56,828 nucleotides of DNA. It comes from Methanobacteriota archaeon. Its GTDB lineage: Archaea > Thermoplasmatota > Thermoplasmata > Thermoplasmatales > GCA-001856825. The notes beneath the pieces are model-generated. The model had not been told where the DNA came from. It was given only the letters and a program-made list of their open reading frames with translations, and did not search any database. Location: positions 1 through 56,828 of the forward strand of contig JAFMDN010000006.1 in NCBI GenBank assembly GCA_017857235.1, read 5' to 3'. Below, one piece after another: positions 14,462 to 43,831 of this stretch (position 1 is its first letter; every line of letters starts with the position of its first letter). The translations under genes and the position numbers were made by a program.

Positions 14462-15703
14462 GTGTCTGAAACAATCAAATTCATGTCAAAGGTAACTTTA
14501 AAATGGAAAGGGATAACAGTTTCCGGGAGATATATAAATGAAATTGGCGATTTTATCATAATTAAGCTAGATAATGGCTACAATATGTCATTCAAAAAGG
14601 ACGGTATTGAAATTATTGAAGCTTTAGAACCTGACGCTCAATTTGAAAATAATAATCATAAGAAAGTGAATGGAAATAAAGTTGGGGGGGTTGTGATCAT
14701 AGGGACTGGTGGAACCATTGCTTCGTATGTTGATTATAAAACAGGCGCCGTTAAGCCCCTTAAAAATTTCCAAGAGGCATTATTCAATAGCGAAGAACTT
14801 GAAACCCTCGGTAATATAGAGGATGAAATTCTTTTCAATATTTTCTCTGAAGATATGGAGCCAGACCATTGGATTGAAATGGCTCGGAAAGCTTATGAAA
14901 GAATGAAAGAAGGTAAGGCTTTGGTTTTTGCACATGGAACCGATACCATGTCATTTTCAGCTTCGGCCCTTTCATTTATGATTGAGAATAACCATTACCC
15001 AATTATTTTTACAGGTTCCCAGAGGTCATCTGACAGACCAAGCAGCGATGCTTATTTCAATTTAAAGGGAGCCATAAAATTGGCAGCTACAAGCGACTTG
15101 GGGGATGTTTCTGTTGTAATGCATTCAGATATGAGTGATGATTTCCTCTCTATTCATAAGGGGGTTAGAGTGAGGAAGATGCATACGTCAAGAAGAGATG
15201 CATTCAAAAGTATAAATGATATTGAATTAGGAAGGATCGACAGTATGCTGAACATTAAACTTAATGATAATTACAGAAAAATCAAAAGAGAAAATGATAT
15301 GATTCTTTATGATAAATTCGAAAAAATGGTTTCATTAATTTATTACTATCCTGGAATGGATAAAGAAATATTTTATAAACAGATTGATAAATCTAAAGGA
15401 TCCATTATTGCAGGCACTGGCCTTGGACATATAAAAAATGAGTTTGTCCATTATTTATCACAATATCGTGATGAAAAAATAATAGGGGTAACCTCCCAAT
15501 GCCTGTATGGTTCTGTTAATTTGAATGTTTACAGTACCGGAAGGAACATGCTATCTGCAGGCCTAATACCACTTAAAGACATGCTGCCTGAAACTGCATA
15601 TGTTAAACTGGGTTTTCTTCTGGGCAATTTCGAATTCCAGAGAGCAAAGGAGTTATTAAACACGGATATGAGAGGTGAGATCTCTGACAGACGCACAAAC
15701 TGA
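14462..15703 (+). CDS. gatD: Glutamyl-tRNA(Gln) amidotransferase subunit D
   Basis: A 413-residue asparaginase-like subunit that releases ammonia from an amide donor, for conversion of Glu-tRNA(Gln) to Gln-tRNA(Gln) with GatE. Residues 1-~55 form the small beta-barrel (VTLKWKGITVSGRY). The catalytic domain has GTGGTIASYVDYKTGAV, AHGTDTMSFSA and the Lys-containing YFNLKGAIKLA. GTG 14462 sits at the expected leaderless distance from the TATA-like box; ATG 14483 is an alternative. The 3' end overlaps gatE by 29 bp. Confidence 0.95.
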   Translation: MSETIKFMSKVTLKWKGITVSGRYINEIGDFIIIKLDNGYNMSFKKDGIEIIEALEPDAQFENNNHKKVNGNKVGGVVIIGTGGTIASYVDYKTGAVKPLKNFQEALFNSEELETLGNIEDEILFNIFSEDMEPDHWIEMARKAYERMKEGKALVFAHGTDTMSFSASALSFMIENNHYPIIFTGSQRSSDRPSSDAYFNLKGAIKLAATSDLGDVSVVMHSDMSDDFLSIHKGVRVRKMHTSRRDAFKSINDIELGRIDSMLNIKLNDNYRKIKRENDMILYDKFEKMVSLIYYYPGMDKEIFYKQIDKSKGSIIAGTGLGHIKNEFVHYLSQYRDEKIIGVTSQCLYGSVNLNVYSTGRNMLSAGLIPLKDMLPETAYVKLGFLLGNFEFQRAKELLNTDMRGEISDRRTN

Positions 15704-37892: not shown

Positions 37893-37913
37893 GATGGGGA
37901 GAGAAACCATTCC
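37893..37913 (-). promoter_or_regulatory. Pre-16S processing stem, 3' arm
   Basis: Its complement lies at 39429-39453: a 14-bp helix (GATGGGGAGAGAAA with TTTCTCTCCCCATC) and a 7-bp helix (CCATTCC with GGAATGG), interrupted by four extra bases on the 5' side. In archaea such stems carry a bulge-helix-bulge cut by the tRNA splicing endonuclease, which releases and circularises pre-16S. Confidence 0.8.
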
Positions 37914-37917
37914 AAGC

Positions 37918-39393
<1,476 letters not shown>

Positions 39394-39428: not shown

Positions 39429-39453
39429 GGAATGGACCATTTCTCTCCCCATC
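39429..39453 (-). promoter_or_regulatory. Pre-16S processing stem, 5' arm
   Basis: Partner of 37893-37913, placed 36 nt before the mature 16S 5' end. GGAATGG (39429-39435) and TTTCTCTCCCCATC (39440-39453) are separated by ACCA, which forms the asymmetric bulge. A second bulge can only be drawn with alternative pairing. Confidence 0.8.
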
Positions 39454-39456
39454 TCA

Positions 39457-39482
39457 GATTCGAGCTATTTATTTCTCGAATC
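39457..39482 (-). ncRNA. Leader hairpin preceding the 16S processing stem
   Basis: GATTCGAG (39457-39464) and CTCGAATC (39475-39482) form a perfect 8-bp stem with a 10-nt AU-rich loop. It lies in the 5' leader of the pre-16S RNA between the kink-turn hairpin and the processing stem. Confidence 0.7.
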
Positions 39483-39490
39483 CTCATACC

Positions 39491-39562
39491 TTTTGCCGTT
39501 TAGGAACCTGGTCATCATGCTGTCCTAATGGACTATCAGACCAGTCGTATTTGACGGCAAAA
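39491..39562 (-). ncRNA. Nested hairpin with a kink-turn (box C/D-like) core in the 16S leader
   Basis: Three nested helices: UUUUGCCGU/ACGGCAAAA (39554-39562 with 39491-39499), CUGGUC/GACCAG (39539-39544 with 39508-39513) and GUCC/GGAC (39530-39533 with 39522-39525, loop AUUA). Between the last two, one strand has CUGA and the other AUGAUGA, arranged so that A-U, G-C, U-U and two sheared G-A pairs form, which is the box C/D kink-turn bound by L7Ae. The transcript, from a TATA-like CTTAATATATT at 39579-39589, should begin about at the outer arm. Confidence 0.7.
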
Positions 39563-39578
39563 CTATGAAGTAATATCG

Positions 39579-39589
39579 AATATATTAAG
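39579..39589 (-). promoter_or_regulatory. Probable 16S rRNA promoter TATA box
   Basis: CTTAATATATT on the minus strand, ~25 bp upstream of the outer arm of the leader hairpin. No other strong TATA-like element lies between it and the 16S 5' end. Confidence 0.55.
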
Positions 39590-39763: not shown

Positions 39764-39940
39764 ATGCTAGGAAGCCCAACTGACTGGATAATATTCATAC
39801 TTGTGGTGCTGTTGGTATTAGGTGGATCCAAAAAAATTCCTGAGCTAGCTCATTCTTTAGGCAGGGCATTGGGTGAATTCAAGAAAGGGCAAATGGAAGT
39901 GGAAAAAGAGATAAAAGAGGCAGTCAATGAGAAAAAATAA
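39764..39940 (+). CDS. tatA: Twin-arginine translocase subunit TatA
   Basis: A 58-residue gene. MLGSPTDWIIFILVVLLVLG supplies the single N-terminal helix, then GGSKKIPELAHSLGRALGEF is the typical hinge and amphipathic helix (FGxKKLPELAxxLGxAxxEFK type), followed by a charged tail. ATG 39764 is preceded by AAAGGA; ATG 39754 is in another frame and stops after nine codons. TatA oligomers form the path for folded proteins. It opens a cluster that includes a Tat-dependent Rieske protein and ends with tatC. Confidence 0.93.
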   Translation: MLGSPTDWIIFILVVLLVLGGSKKIPELAHSLGRALGEFKKGQMEVEKEIKEAVNEKK

Positions 39941-39967
39941 TTAGAATTATACTCATAGGTGTTTTCA

Positions 39968-41516: not shown

Positions 41517-42218
41517 ATGCCACAGGAGAATAAAAATCCTGATCTCAGCAGAAGAAATTTCCTTAAGGCAATGGGTGTGCTAGCTGTCGGTGTTGGAGTA
41601 GCTGGCATCCTGAGGGGGGTAGTGATAGACATCATTCCCCCCAATCAAAATGTTGAATCCGGCTACCCCACACTCCAGTTAGCCTTACCTAATGGTAATC
41701 CAGTCCACACAAGTGATCTAATAGTTAATAACCCACAAATAGTCATTTTCAATTATCCTTTGCAAAATGAACCCAACTTTCTTCTTAGGCTAGGTGATAG
41801 CAACAACAATGATGTTGCAGTACAACCCACTGAAGTTACAATTCCAGCAACAGGTGCTAAATTTACTTCCCCGGGAGGAGCAGGTCCTTACAAATCAGTT
41901 GTAGCTTCTTCGGCCATATGCCAGCATCTTGGATGCGTTCCTCCCGAGATTAGATTTCATCCACCAAATGATACCTCCTACCCCGGAAAAATTCATTGCG
42001 ATTGCCATGGAAGTACTTACGATCCCTACCAGGGGTTCAGTGTTGTGACCGGGCCTACTCAGTCTCCCTTGCCCAATGTGAAATTGGTATATGATGCAAC
42101 AAATGATACATATAGTGCAAGCCTGATGATAGGGCCAGTAATTTACGGGAGAACTTCTGACTTGAGTGGAGGAAATCCAATTTCAGGAAATTCAACGGAG
42201 GTCACAACAATATCCTGA
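41517..42218 (+). CDS. Rieske [2Fe-2S] protein, Tat-exported
   Basis: 233 residues. The N terminus SRRNFLK at 11-17 followed by a hydrophobic stretch is a twin-arginine signal-anchor. Cluster box 1 is C135-QH137-LG-C140 and box 2 C161-D-C163-H164-GS, giving two Cys and two His ligands plus the stabilising disulfide pair. It transfers electrons from quinol at cytochrome b to an extracytoplasmic acceptor, here possibly the adjacent cupredoxin. It lies 9 bp after that gene. Confidence 0.95.
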   Translation: MPQENKNPDLSRRNFLKAMGVLAVGVGVAGILRGVVIDIIPPNQNVESGYPTLQLALPNGNPVHTSDLIVNNPQIVIFNYPLQNEPNFLLRLGDSNNNDVAVQPTEVTIPATGAKFTSPGGAGPYKSVVASSAICQHLGCVPPEIRFHPPNDTSYPGKIHCDCHGSTYDPYQGFSVVTGPTQSPLPNVKLVYDATNDTYSASLMIGPVIYGRTSDLSGGNPISGNSTEVTTIS

Positions 42219-42229
42219 GAGGTATAAAT

Positions 42230-43831
42230 ATGAATGAAGAAAAATCACTAATTGAAAAAATAATGAATGAACCACAGCCAATACCTAGAAAAGTCCCCGA
42301 CTACATGAGAAAAAAAGGGGGGATATGGTATTGGACTGGCGCGATGATAATGATAACGTTCTTCTATGAAGTAATAACAGGAGTGATATTGCTATTTTAT
42401 TATCAGCCTTCTAATGCTTATAATAGCACAATTTCATTTCTGACCCAACCATTTGGAACCATAATTTTGACCACCCATCTCTATGGTGCTTATCTGATGA
42501 TAGCCTTTGTCTATATCCACTTGTTGAGAAACTTGTTTGTTGGGTCCTATAAGAAACCAAGAGGATCCCAGTGGCTGACTGGAGTATTGTTATTAATTTT
42601 AACAGTAGCCGCAGGATATTTCGGATATTCATTGACCGGAGACGTCCTTTCAGCAGATGCAACAGATGTTGGAAGAGGAATTGCGGCTGCTACCCCGTTT
42701 ATAGGTAGCTATTTGGAATTTATATTCTTTGGTGCTGGAACATCTATAGAGTTGTTCCAGAGGTTGGAAGCCTGGCATATTATTATAGCCGGTACCATAT
42801 TTTTACTATTTGCCATACATTTCTACATGGCTGAATACAATACCATAATGCCAGATCCAAAAGAAGCAAATTACAAGGCACCTTTAATAGATAAAGATGA
42901 TAAAAACTACAAACCCTGGTATCCGTACAACTTTATGTACATGATGCAGATTGCATTTTCTACCCTTGCTTTAATTTTGATAATACCTTCAGCTTTTGCC
43001 CTTATACCTAATATTCCGCCTTTGCTATCTCCATTTCCGCAAGTTTCACCCACAAGTCCTTTGGCTTCACAAGTCCCGCCTTACCCCCCATGGTTCCTTT
43101 TGTTTGTTTATAAAGAATTGGATTTTCAATTTGCCTCAGTTATAGGGCCCTTCTGGGCAGTTGCAATATTTACTGGAATGCCATTAATATACCTATTTCT
43201 TATTCCACTAATAGACAGAAACAATGACTTGAAACCATCAAGGAGGCCACTCATTATAGCAACTGGAATTGTAGGAATTTTTTATTACGTTGCCTTATCT
43301 ATTTGGGGAGCATTCAGGCCAGGAGTTCCTGTTCCTAATTCCTTAGCGCTGATATTCTTCGTTATACCTTTAGTGATTATGGTGCCTCTTATCTATTATC
43401 TTGCTGGAAACTTTGAGAAAGAGAAGTATAAGAATCCCAATGCTTGGAAGATCATGGCCCTGGTTTCTATTGCAGGATTCTTTGGATTCCTTAGCGGCAT
43501 GTCGATTTATTCATTAATATCGACAGGTTCTGCTCTTTCCTTAGGTGAAACTGTTGCTTCTTTGGTTTTCCTGGCATTAACAATACTGGCAATATATGCA
43601 GTATACGGAGGAGTAAAAATAAACAAAAATCCAATCAGGATGACAGGAACTGGCTATACTGTATTTGGAGCTGTTTATGGACTTCTAGCTGTTTGGATTT
43701 TCACAATGATTAGCTTCATACCTATGACAAGCACAAGGGATCAGGCTATGATAGGCATAGGTCTTGGAATAATTTTCTTCATTTCAGCAGTATTGACAAA
43801 GATTTACAGAGCTTATGCATATGGAGAGTAG
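42230..43831 (+). CDS. Cytochrome b of a bc1/b6f-like complex
   Basis: A 533-residue polytopic subunit. Four haem ligands occur as H83/H97 (TTHLYGAYLMIAFVYIHLLR) and H183/H197 (AWHIIIAGTIFLLFAIHFYM), each 14 apart. The ef-loop motif normally PEWY reads P286-P-W-F289, so the Glu and Tyr of the quinol-oxidation site are both changed. The C-terminal ~180 residues carry extra helices beyond the core. It follows the Rieske gene by 11 bp. Confidence 0.95.
   Translation: MNEEKSLIEKIMNEPQPIPRKVPDYMRKKGGIWYWTGAMIMITFFYEVITGVILLFYYQPSNAYNSTISFLTQPFGTIILTTHLYGAYLMIAFVYIHLLRNLFVGSYKKPRGSQWLTGVLLLILTVAAGYFGYSLTGDVLSADATDVGRGIAAATPFIGSYLEFIFFGAGTSIELFQRLEAWHIIIAGTIFLLFAIHFYMAEYNTIMPDPKEANYKAPLIDKDDKNYKPWYPYNFMYMMQIAFSTLALILIIPSAFALIPNIPPLLSPFPQVSPTSPLASQVPPYPPWFLLFVYKELDFQFASVIGPFWAVAIFTGMPLIYLFLIPLIDRNNDLKPSRRPLIIATGIVGIFYYVALSIWGAFRPGVPVPNSLALIFFVIPLVIMVPLIYYLAGNFEKEKYKNPNAWKIMALVSIAGFFGFLSGMSIYSLISTGSALSLGETVASLVFLALTILAIYAVYGGVKINKNPIRMTGTGYTVFGAVYGLLAVWIFTMISFIPMTSTRDQAMIGIGLGIIFFISAVLTKIYRAYAYGE

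Follow-up and report, generated by a model that had tools for sequence, protein, structure and literature searches.

H/ACA guide RNAs direct the isomerization of uridine to pseudouridine. In archaea, the rules quoted in PMC4652768 give them a kink-turn or kink-loop in the upper stem, a GA stem spanning 8-11 bp and, at a distance of 14-16 nt, an ANA box. For P. abyssi the same source lists 14 of 15 productive guides with a 10-bp GA stem and 7 of 8 non-productive ones with 8, 9 or 11 bp, and it gives the two pocket strands of productive guides as 5-8 and 5-6 nt. The described RNA most like the element reported here is Pab19/Tko-19 of the Thermococcales (RF02794), an H/ACA hairpin in the 16S leader. 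In the T. kodakarensis transcriptome, Tko-19 was remarked to lie directly upstream of 16S and likely inside the leader (PMC4247193).

Three other systems share features with it. Yeast snR35 is likewise of the H/ACA class, and the helix-31 nucleotide that it modifies, Ψ1191 of 18S, corresponds to the site that we predict below, but it is a separate gene, and the target in Thermoplasmata is a prediction only (PMC7694415, PMC7005279). The H/ACA RNA snR30/U17 is tied to small-subunit maturation; it acts in trans, pairing with expansion segment 6 of 18S (PMC7601244). Finally, L7Ae-binding kink-turns occur at the 5' end of archaeal mRNA leaders, where they have no pocket and no ANA box and serve translational control (PMC5539422).

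Here we describe a hairpin of H/ACA type at the 5' end of the pre-16S leader in the window, that is, the whole 56,828-nt stretch of DNA that was analyzed, and at the same place in most sampled families of the archaeal class. We put at roughly 0.6 the probability that it forms an H/ACA-type guide unit within the leader and functions as a guide in the class. H/ACA units carried by a leader are in themselves already known, since Pab19 sits in Thermococcus leaders. As far as our literature search shows, what is new is the spread of such a hairpin through a class, together with the hypothesis that it addresses helix 31. That full-text search, with most subscription papers outside its scope, listed no publication in which a 16S leader of Thermoplasmata is described as bearing an H/ACA element.

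On the minus strand, the hairpin precedes the 16S rRNA gene (37920-39393, minus strand; RF01959, 1510.8 bits) and is read from 39562 to 39491, the first 72 nt of the presumed leader; all features of the leader given below are on this strand. The fold and the alignment place a 9-bp lower stem, P1, formed by UUUUGCCGU (39554-39562) and ACGGCAAAA (39491-39499), and a 6-bp upper stem, P2, formed by CUGGUC (39539-39544) and GACCAG (39508-39513). Between the two stems, layout and conservation define a pocket of two single strands: 9 nt on the 5' side (CAAAUACGA, 39545-39553) and 8 nt on the 3' side (GUUCCUAA, 39500-39507), the latter bearing a UUCC that is conserved in the class. The kink-turn and apical part (39514-39538) include a 4-bp C-stem, GUCC with GGAC, and the loop AUUA. 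CUGA (39539-39536) and AUGAUGA (39518-39512) are positioned for tandem G·A pairs (39537-39536 with 39516-39515), a U·U pair and a 3-nt CAU bulge (39519-39517). An AAA (39491-39493) at 14 nt from the upper stem is the ANA box of this layout.

The folding energy of this hairpin, -27.7 kcal/mol, was lower than that of all 200 dinucleotide shuffles (-16.3 ± 3.0 kcal/mol; z -3.85). The three nested helices around CUGA and AUGAUGA that the original prediction had drawn were thus verified in fold and position, and 39562-39491 is a real hairpin that contains a real kink-turn. A TATA-like element, TTAATATA (39581-39588), is the presumed promoter, judged from its sequence. With the TATA-to-start spacing of about 23 bp taken from PMC4247193, it would set the start of transcription near 39558-39562, approximately where the lower stem begins. 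In leaders of family f6 (for example L022, L025 and L040), UUACGCAC is conserved near the predicted pre-16S start, upstream of the hairpin.

The kink-turn had been read as box C/D-like, specifically as an internal C'/D' motif through which the leader could recruit fibrillarin. In this interpretation the motif would attract Nop5 and fibrillarin, and the window itself does contain CUGA and AUGAUGA. Among the leaders of five members of the window's own family (f1), however, the D-type box reads CUGA, CAGA, CAGA, UAGA and UAGA and the C-type box AUGAUGA, AUGAUGG, AUGAUGA, AUGAAAG and AUGAAAG. The only parts of the motif that never vary are the two GA dinucleotides, present in 5/5, and the AU that precedes the second of them. 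The boxes vary likewise in other families, and in 12 aligned leaders of the DHVE2/Aciduliprofundum type (f3) a kink-loop is found and the C-stem is absent. The window has a single motif, inside a closed hairpin, with no terminal C and D boxes, and an Rfam search of its leader gave no family, C/D or other, above threshold (best IMES-4, 18.2 bits, E 0.88).

The element is not a box C/D RNA: what has been retained in related leaders is the two G·A pairs and not CUGA/UGAUGA. We therefore rejected a box C/D sRNA, its RUGAUGA/CUGA boxes being unconserved within the family and a terminal C/D motif missing, and we regard the recruitment of Nop5 and fibrillarin as scarcely credible. The paired boxes were indeed lacking from orthologous leaders, which tells against box C/D, but the kink-turn itself was retained: one family after another preserves its G·A pairs together with the U in front of them, and with these a probable L7Ae site. 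The kink-turn of archaeal H/ACA RNAs has the same orientation as that of an internal C'/D' motif, and the resemblance arises from this shared orientation. The H/ACA layout described in PMC4652768 is consistent with it.

The window hairpin very probably has H/ACA-type architecture. Its lower stem of 9 bp lies within the roughly 5-9 bp of archaeal H/ACA RNAs and varies in relatives with compensation; its GA stem of 9 bp lies within the range of 8-11 bp; and its AAA at 14 nt agrees with an ANA box at 14-16 nt from the upper stem, many members of the class having ACA at 13-16 nt. The GA stem is 10 bp in L017 (family f2) and in f3, the family with the kink-loop, and a GA stem of exactly 10 bp is absent from the window's family, where it is 9 bp. 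The window's pocket of 9 and 8 nt exceeds the 5-8 and 5-6 nt quoted for productive guides, which counts against a working guide here. Both the pocket and the GA stem of 9 rather than 10 bp look degenerate in this family.

To survey the class we used a descriptor of the H/ACA layout and 103 leaders, 48 of them from the 52 genomes of the order with a 16S match and 55 from the 121 such genomes elsewhere in the class. Scores of at least 35 were reached by 41 of the 103 leaders compared to 0.39% of 6180 dinucleotide shuffles, and scores of at least 29 by 67 of the 103 compared to 5.5%. The descriptor was composed after the leaders had been inspected, so these shuffle controls weigh more than the score thresholds. 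At the threshold of 29 it found none of 12 leaders in f10, none of three in f11 and one of five in f21. The hairpin is dispensable because it is absent in f10, f11 and most of f21. Several f6 leaders were missed by the descriptor, including L020 and L018, which is probably T. acidophilum and which has GU replacing one GA. A covariance model recovered hairpins that the descriptor had missed in f14 (L074, 22 bits, E 0.017; L067, 17.4 bits, E 0.79) and in f15 (L062, 16.5 bits, E 0.35).

Covariation of the stems, which the original prediction had named as a check in related leaders, was found within the family and, strongly, across the class. The alignment of five family members has 97.9% of its cells paired, and three of the six upper-stem pairs are changed on both sides. 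The covariation score of this alignment was reached by 9 of 500 shuffles; the bare count of both-side changes was unexceptional, being reached by 160 of 500. In the class alignment of 16 leaders from seven families, 94.7% of cells pair and 11 of 13 pairs are changed on both sides. These changes amount to 55 cells as compared to 18.3 ± 3.6 in the shuffles, none of 500 of which reached that number.

The class alignment (A8; families f3, f16, f19, f22, f24, f26 and f27) holds no member of the window's family. It retains 16 of the 23 rows of alignment A7; the other seven had been set aside or had an upper stem that was out of register. Three of the 12 rows of alignment A3 are out of register in the lower stem, and pair counts were therefore not taken from A3 or A6. 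Another covariation table, of 75 hairpins, was preselected by the descriptor and is hence biased towards pairing.

We built a covariance model, R1, from these 16 leaders of the class alignment and searched 55 other sources totaling 220 kb. Many of these sources gave no match at E≤1; of the 14 matches obtained, 13 were the leader hairpin. The window hairpin was among those recovered (39489-39561, 16.3 bits), with E 0.35 in 220 kb and E 7.9e-4 over 501 nt. The match outside the leader hairpins, at window positions 15524-15600, is taken as chance. A second model that included the window hairpin, R2, gave 15 matches in 53 sources, all of them leader hairpins.

While the stems vary in sequence, the pocket does not do so freely. 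Across 38 representatives the information per position rises to 1.34 bits in the 5' pocket strand and 1.03 in the 3' strand, compared to 0.02-0.48 in the stems. The class consensus is approximately GGCGA before the upper stem and approximately UUCCA after it, and in the window's family UUCCU and CGA are invariant in 5/5. Covarying stems together with conserved pockets are the pattern of a guide RNA. One different possibility, which keeps part of the original prediction, is that the kink-turn serves solely as a sensor or chaperone site for L7Ae on the leader, with no role for box C/D proteins. The G·A pairs kept across families would fit such a site, as would the precedent of L7Ae bound to kink-turns in mRNA leaders of other archaea (PMC5539422), but it would account neither for the pocket and its conservation nor for the lower stem and an ANA box at constant spacing, and we consider it very unlikely. 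The results give no reason to invoke a feedback of L7Ae on rRNA output.

For the guide unit, the following mechanism may be proposed. Transcription would start at or just before the lower stem, L7Ae would bind the upper-stem kink-turn, and Cbf5, Nop10 and Gar1 would assemble on the lower stem and the ANA box. A uridine of 16S rRNA would then be flanked on both sides by pairing with the pocket strands, and Cbf5 would isomerize it. The guide would be supplied once per 16S transcript and could act in cis or after cleavage of the leader. In most sampled families such a guide would, if real, couple the synthesis of rRNA to its modification, and no gene of its own would be needed for it.

The genes for two of the proteins are present: Cbf5 (323 bits) and Nop10 (85.8 bits) were both found in this genome. 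Counting this genome, they occur in 14 of 15 genomes of the window's family, the single miss being a genome that is 52% complete.

The pocket of Pab19 (5' GACGGCGGC, 3' CUCCA) resembles that of the Thermoplasmata hairpins (5' approximately ACGGCGA, 3' approximately UUCCA). RF02794 matched the three Thermococcus 16S loci given to it (81-94 bits) and none of seven Thermoplasmata leaders (E≤0.1); conversely, the Thermoplasmata covariance models matched none of eight Thermococcus leaders (E≤1). As neither matches across, the window hairpin is not filed as Pab19. Homology is nonetheless plausible. Pab19 differs also in its target, having been assigned to S1017 rather than to helix 31 in PMC4652768.

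For the class, the most likely target of the putative guide is the uridine of helix 31 that corresponds to E. coli 966; the hairpin would then take the role of yeast snR35. With a loose pairing geometry, picked after earlier and stricter scans, this uridine ranked first of 216 16S columns over 42 leaders (mean Z 2.34) and above all 547 columns of 23S (best 2.12; 18 genomes for 23S). The helix-31 statistic over 37 representatives, 2.49, exceeded each of 400 permutations with scrambled guide positions (mean of the permutation maxima 1.29, highest 2.35). With near-canonical geometry, sites other than helix 31 ranked first; one of these stricter scans used the same 42 of the 103 leaders as the loose one. 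A possible fit of helix 31 to Pab19 as well was assessed on the 16S of another Thermococci genome as a proxy: among 224 columns, the site had ranks 10, 2 and 10 with three guides from Thermococcus when pairing was loose, and ranks 82, 68 and 82 when it was strict.

We also considered other candidate sites, namely 16S U1284/1285, U863/864 (E. coli 920/921) and U834 and several 23S sites. They depend mostly on the short UUCC arm and were rejected; none of the sites from the stricter scans had both arms as conserved as those of helix 31 in the loose scan. Pairing to the leader or trailer gave no common site in a scan that extended beyond 16S by up to 300 nt on its 5' side and by about 120 nt on its 3' side.

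The helix-31 site carries m1Ψ or m1acp3Ψ in other archaea and in eukaryotes, examples being P. abyssi (m1Ψ938, modelled), M. jannaschii, S. solfataricus and, via snR35, yeast 1191 (PMC7005279, PMC11698992, PMC7694415 and PMC9508554). We rate the helix-31 uridine as the target in the class at slightly less than an even chance. If it is the target, the hairpin becomes a candidate guide for the helix-31 pseudouridine on which archaeal Nep1 acts. A fuller version may be stated as follows: the class leader encodes its own helix-31 (P-site) guide, the counterpart of snR35; Pab19 descends from the same element and has moved to another target; and in the window's family the guide is drifting. We place this on the unlikely side. 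In eukaryotes the H/ACA form, snR35 included, is not known to have a kink-turn.

In the window the candidate target is 16S position 910 (38484, minus strand; UUGGAU-U-CAACGCCGG), a class-level prediction that is weak for this genome's own guide. The window's arms fit little beyond GGA and CG at helix 31, and because they match so little, 14% of this genome's 16S uridines outscore it. Helix 31 is thus an unlikely target in the window's own species, as far as pairing predictions go, and in this family the guide may be degenerate or retargeted.

Nep1 methylates the pseudouridine at the helix-31 site and is not needed for the pseudouridine itself. Nep1 matches were obtained in 138 of 300 class genomes and were strong in f2, f3 and f6 (E of about 1e-46 or better). 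In the window's family the Nep1/EMG1 homologue has diverged to an unusual degree (E 2e-6 to 2e-13), and a search of this genome, which is 89.5% complete, gave no match. Families f13, f16, f18 and f30 also gave no Nep1 match and all bear the hairpin; Nep1 therefore does not track it.

It could be speculated that in the window's family the hairpin is a decaying remnant, an ancestral leader guide whose stems persist after guide function was lost. The weak arms to helix 31, the GA stem of 9 bp and the state of Nep1 in the family and in this genome would all agree with that, but the stems still covary within the family and UUCCU and CGA of the pocket have not changed, so we find a remnant quite improbable. 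Another possibility is a unit of H/ACA type that does not modify, similar to snR30/U17, which would hold Cbf5 and L7Ae on the nascent pre-16S for folding or processing, its pocket pairing without isomerization. Its place at the 5' end of the precursor and the 9-bp GA stem of the window's family are in keeping with such a role. On the other hand, L017 and f3 have the 10-bp GA stem of productive guides, a helix-31 pairing is predicted, and a review states that no archaeal snR30 homologue has been identified and that such a role is thought unlikely (PMC7991803). We consider the snR30-like role improbable, and the guide unit remains our preferred reading for the class. With it, a remark on Tko-19 in one Thermococcus transcriptome paper becomes a pattern that is testable in cultured species.

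Further elements were recognized in the rest of the leader. A second hairpin, GAUUCGAG/CUCGAAUC (39457-39482), follows the H/ACA unit on its 3' side; by eye, a similar one occurs in other leaders, running class-wide approximately as AUGGAG..GAGAAA..GUGACCUCU..CUGACG, and its inner loop is asymmetric and conserved. The leader and trailer strands of the 16S processing stem, recognized by eye from their complementarity, lie at 39429-39453 and 37893-37913, respectively.

A bulge-helix-bulge with a 4-bp center and 3-nt bulges was predicted between leader and trailer in 6/6 cases of f3 (L009-L013 and L016), 2/2 of f2 (L017 and L037) and 3/3 of f11 (L059, L069 and L078). In the window's leader and trailer the search for it gave only a chance-level match. 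The predictions in f3, f2 and f11 contrast with a review figure legend, which marks Thermoplasmata as without a bulge-helix-bulge (PMC8339473). In lineages that have one, the guide could be released together with the joined leader and trailer. The 16S-D RNA of Archaeoglobus fulgidus, reportedly from the work of Tang et al. in 2002, is said to be such a joined 16S leader and trailer and to bear an L7Ae-type motif.

Divergent from the 16S promoter, on the plus strand, the translations show a TatA-like ORF (39764-39942), downstream of which lie Rieske and cytochrome b-like ORFs (41517-43831, plus strand). At 1146-1286 of the window, on the minus strand, Rfam gave a tRNA match of 141 nt (46 bits), whereas ARAGORN, run with its bacterial settings, called none there; this is probably an intron-containing tRNA.
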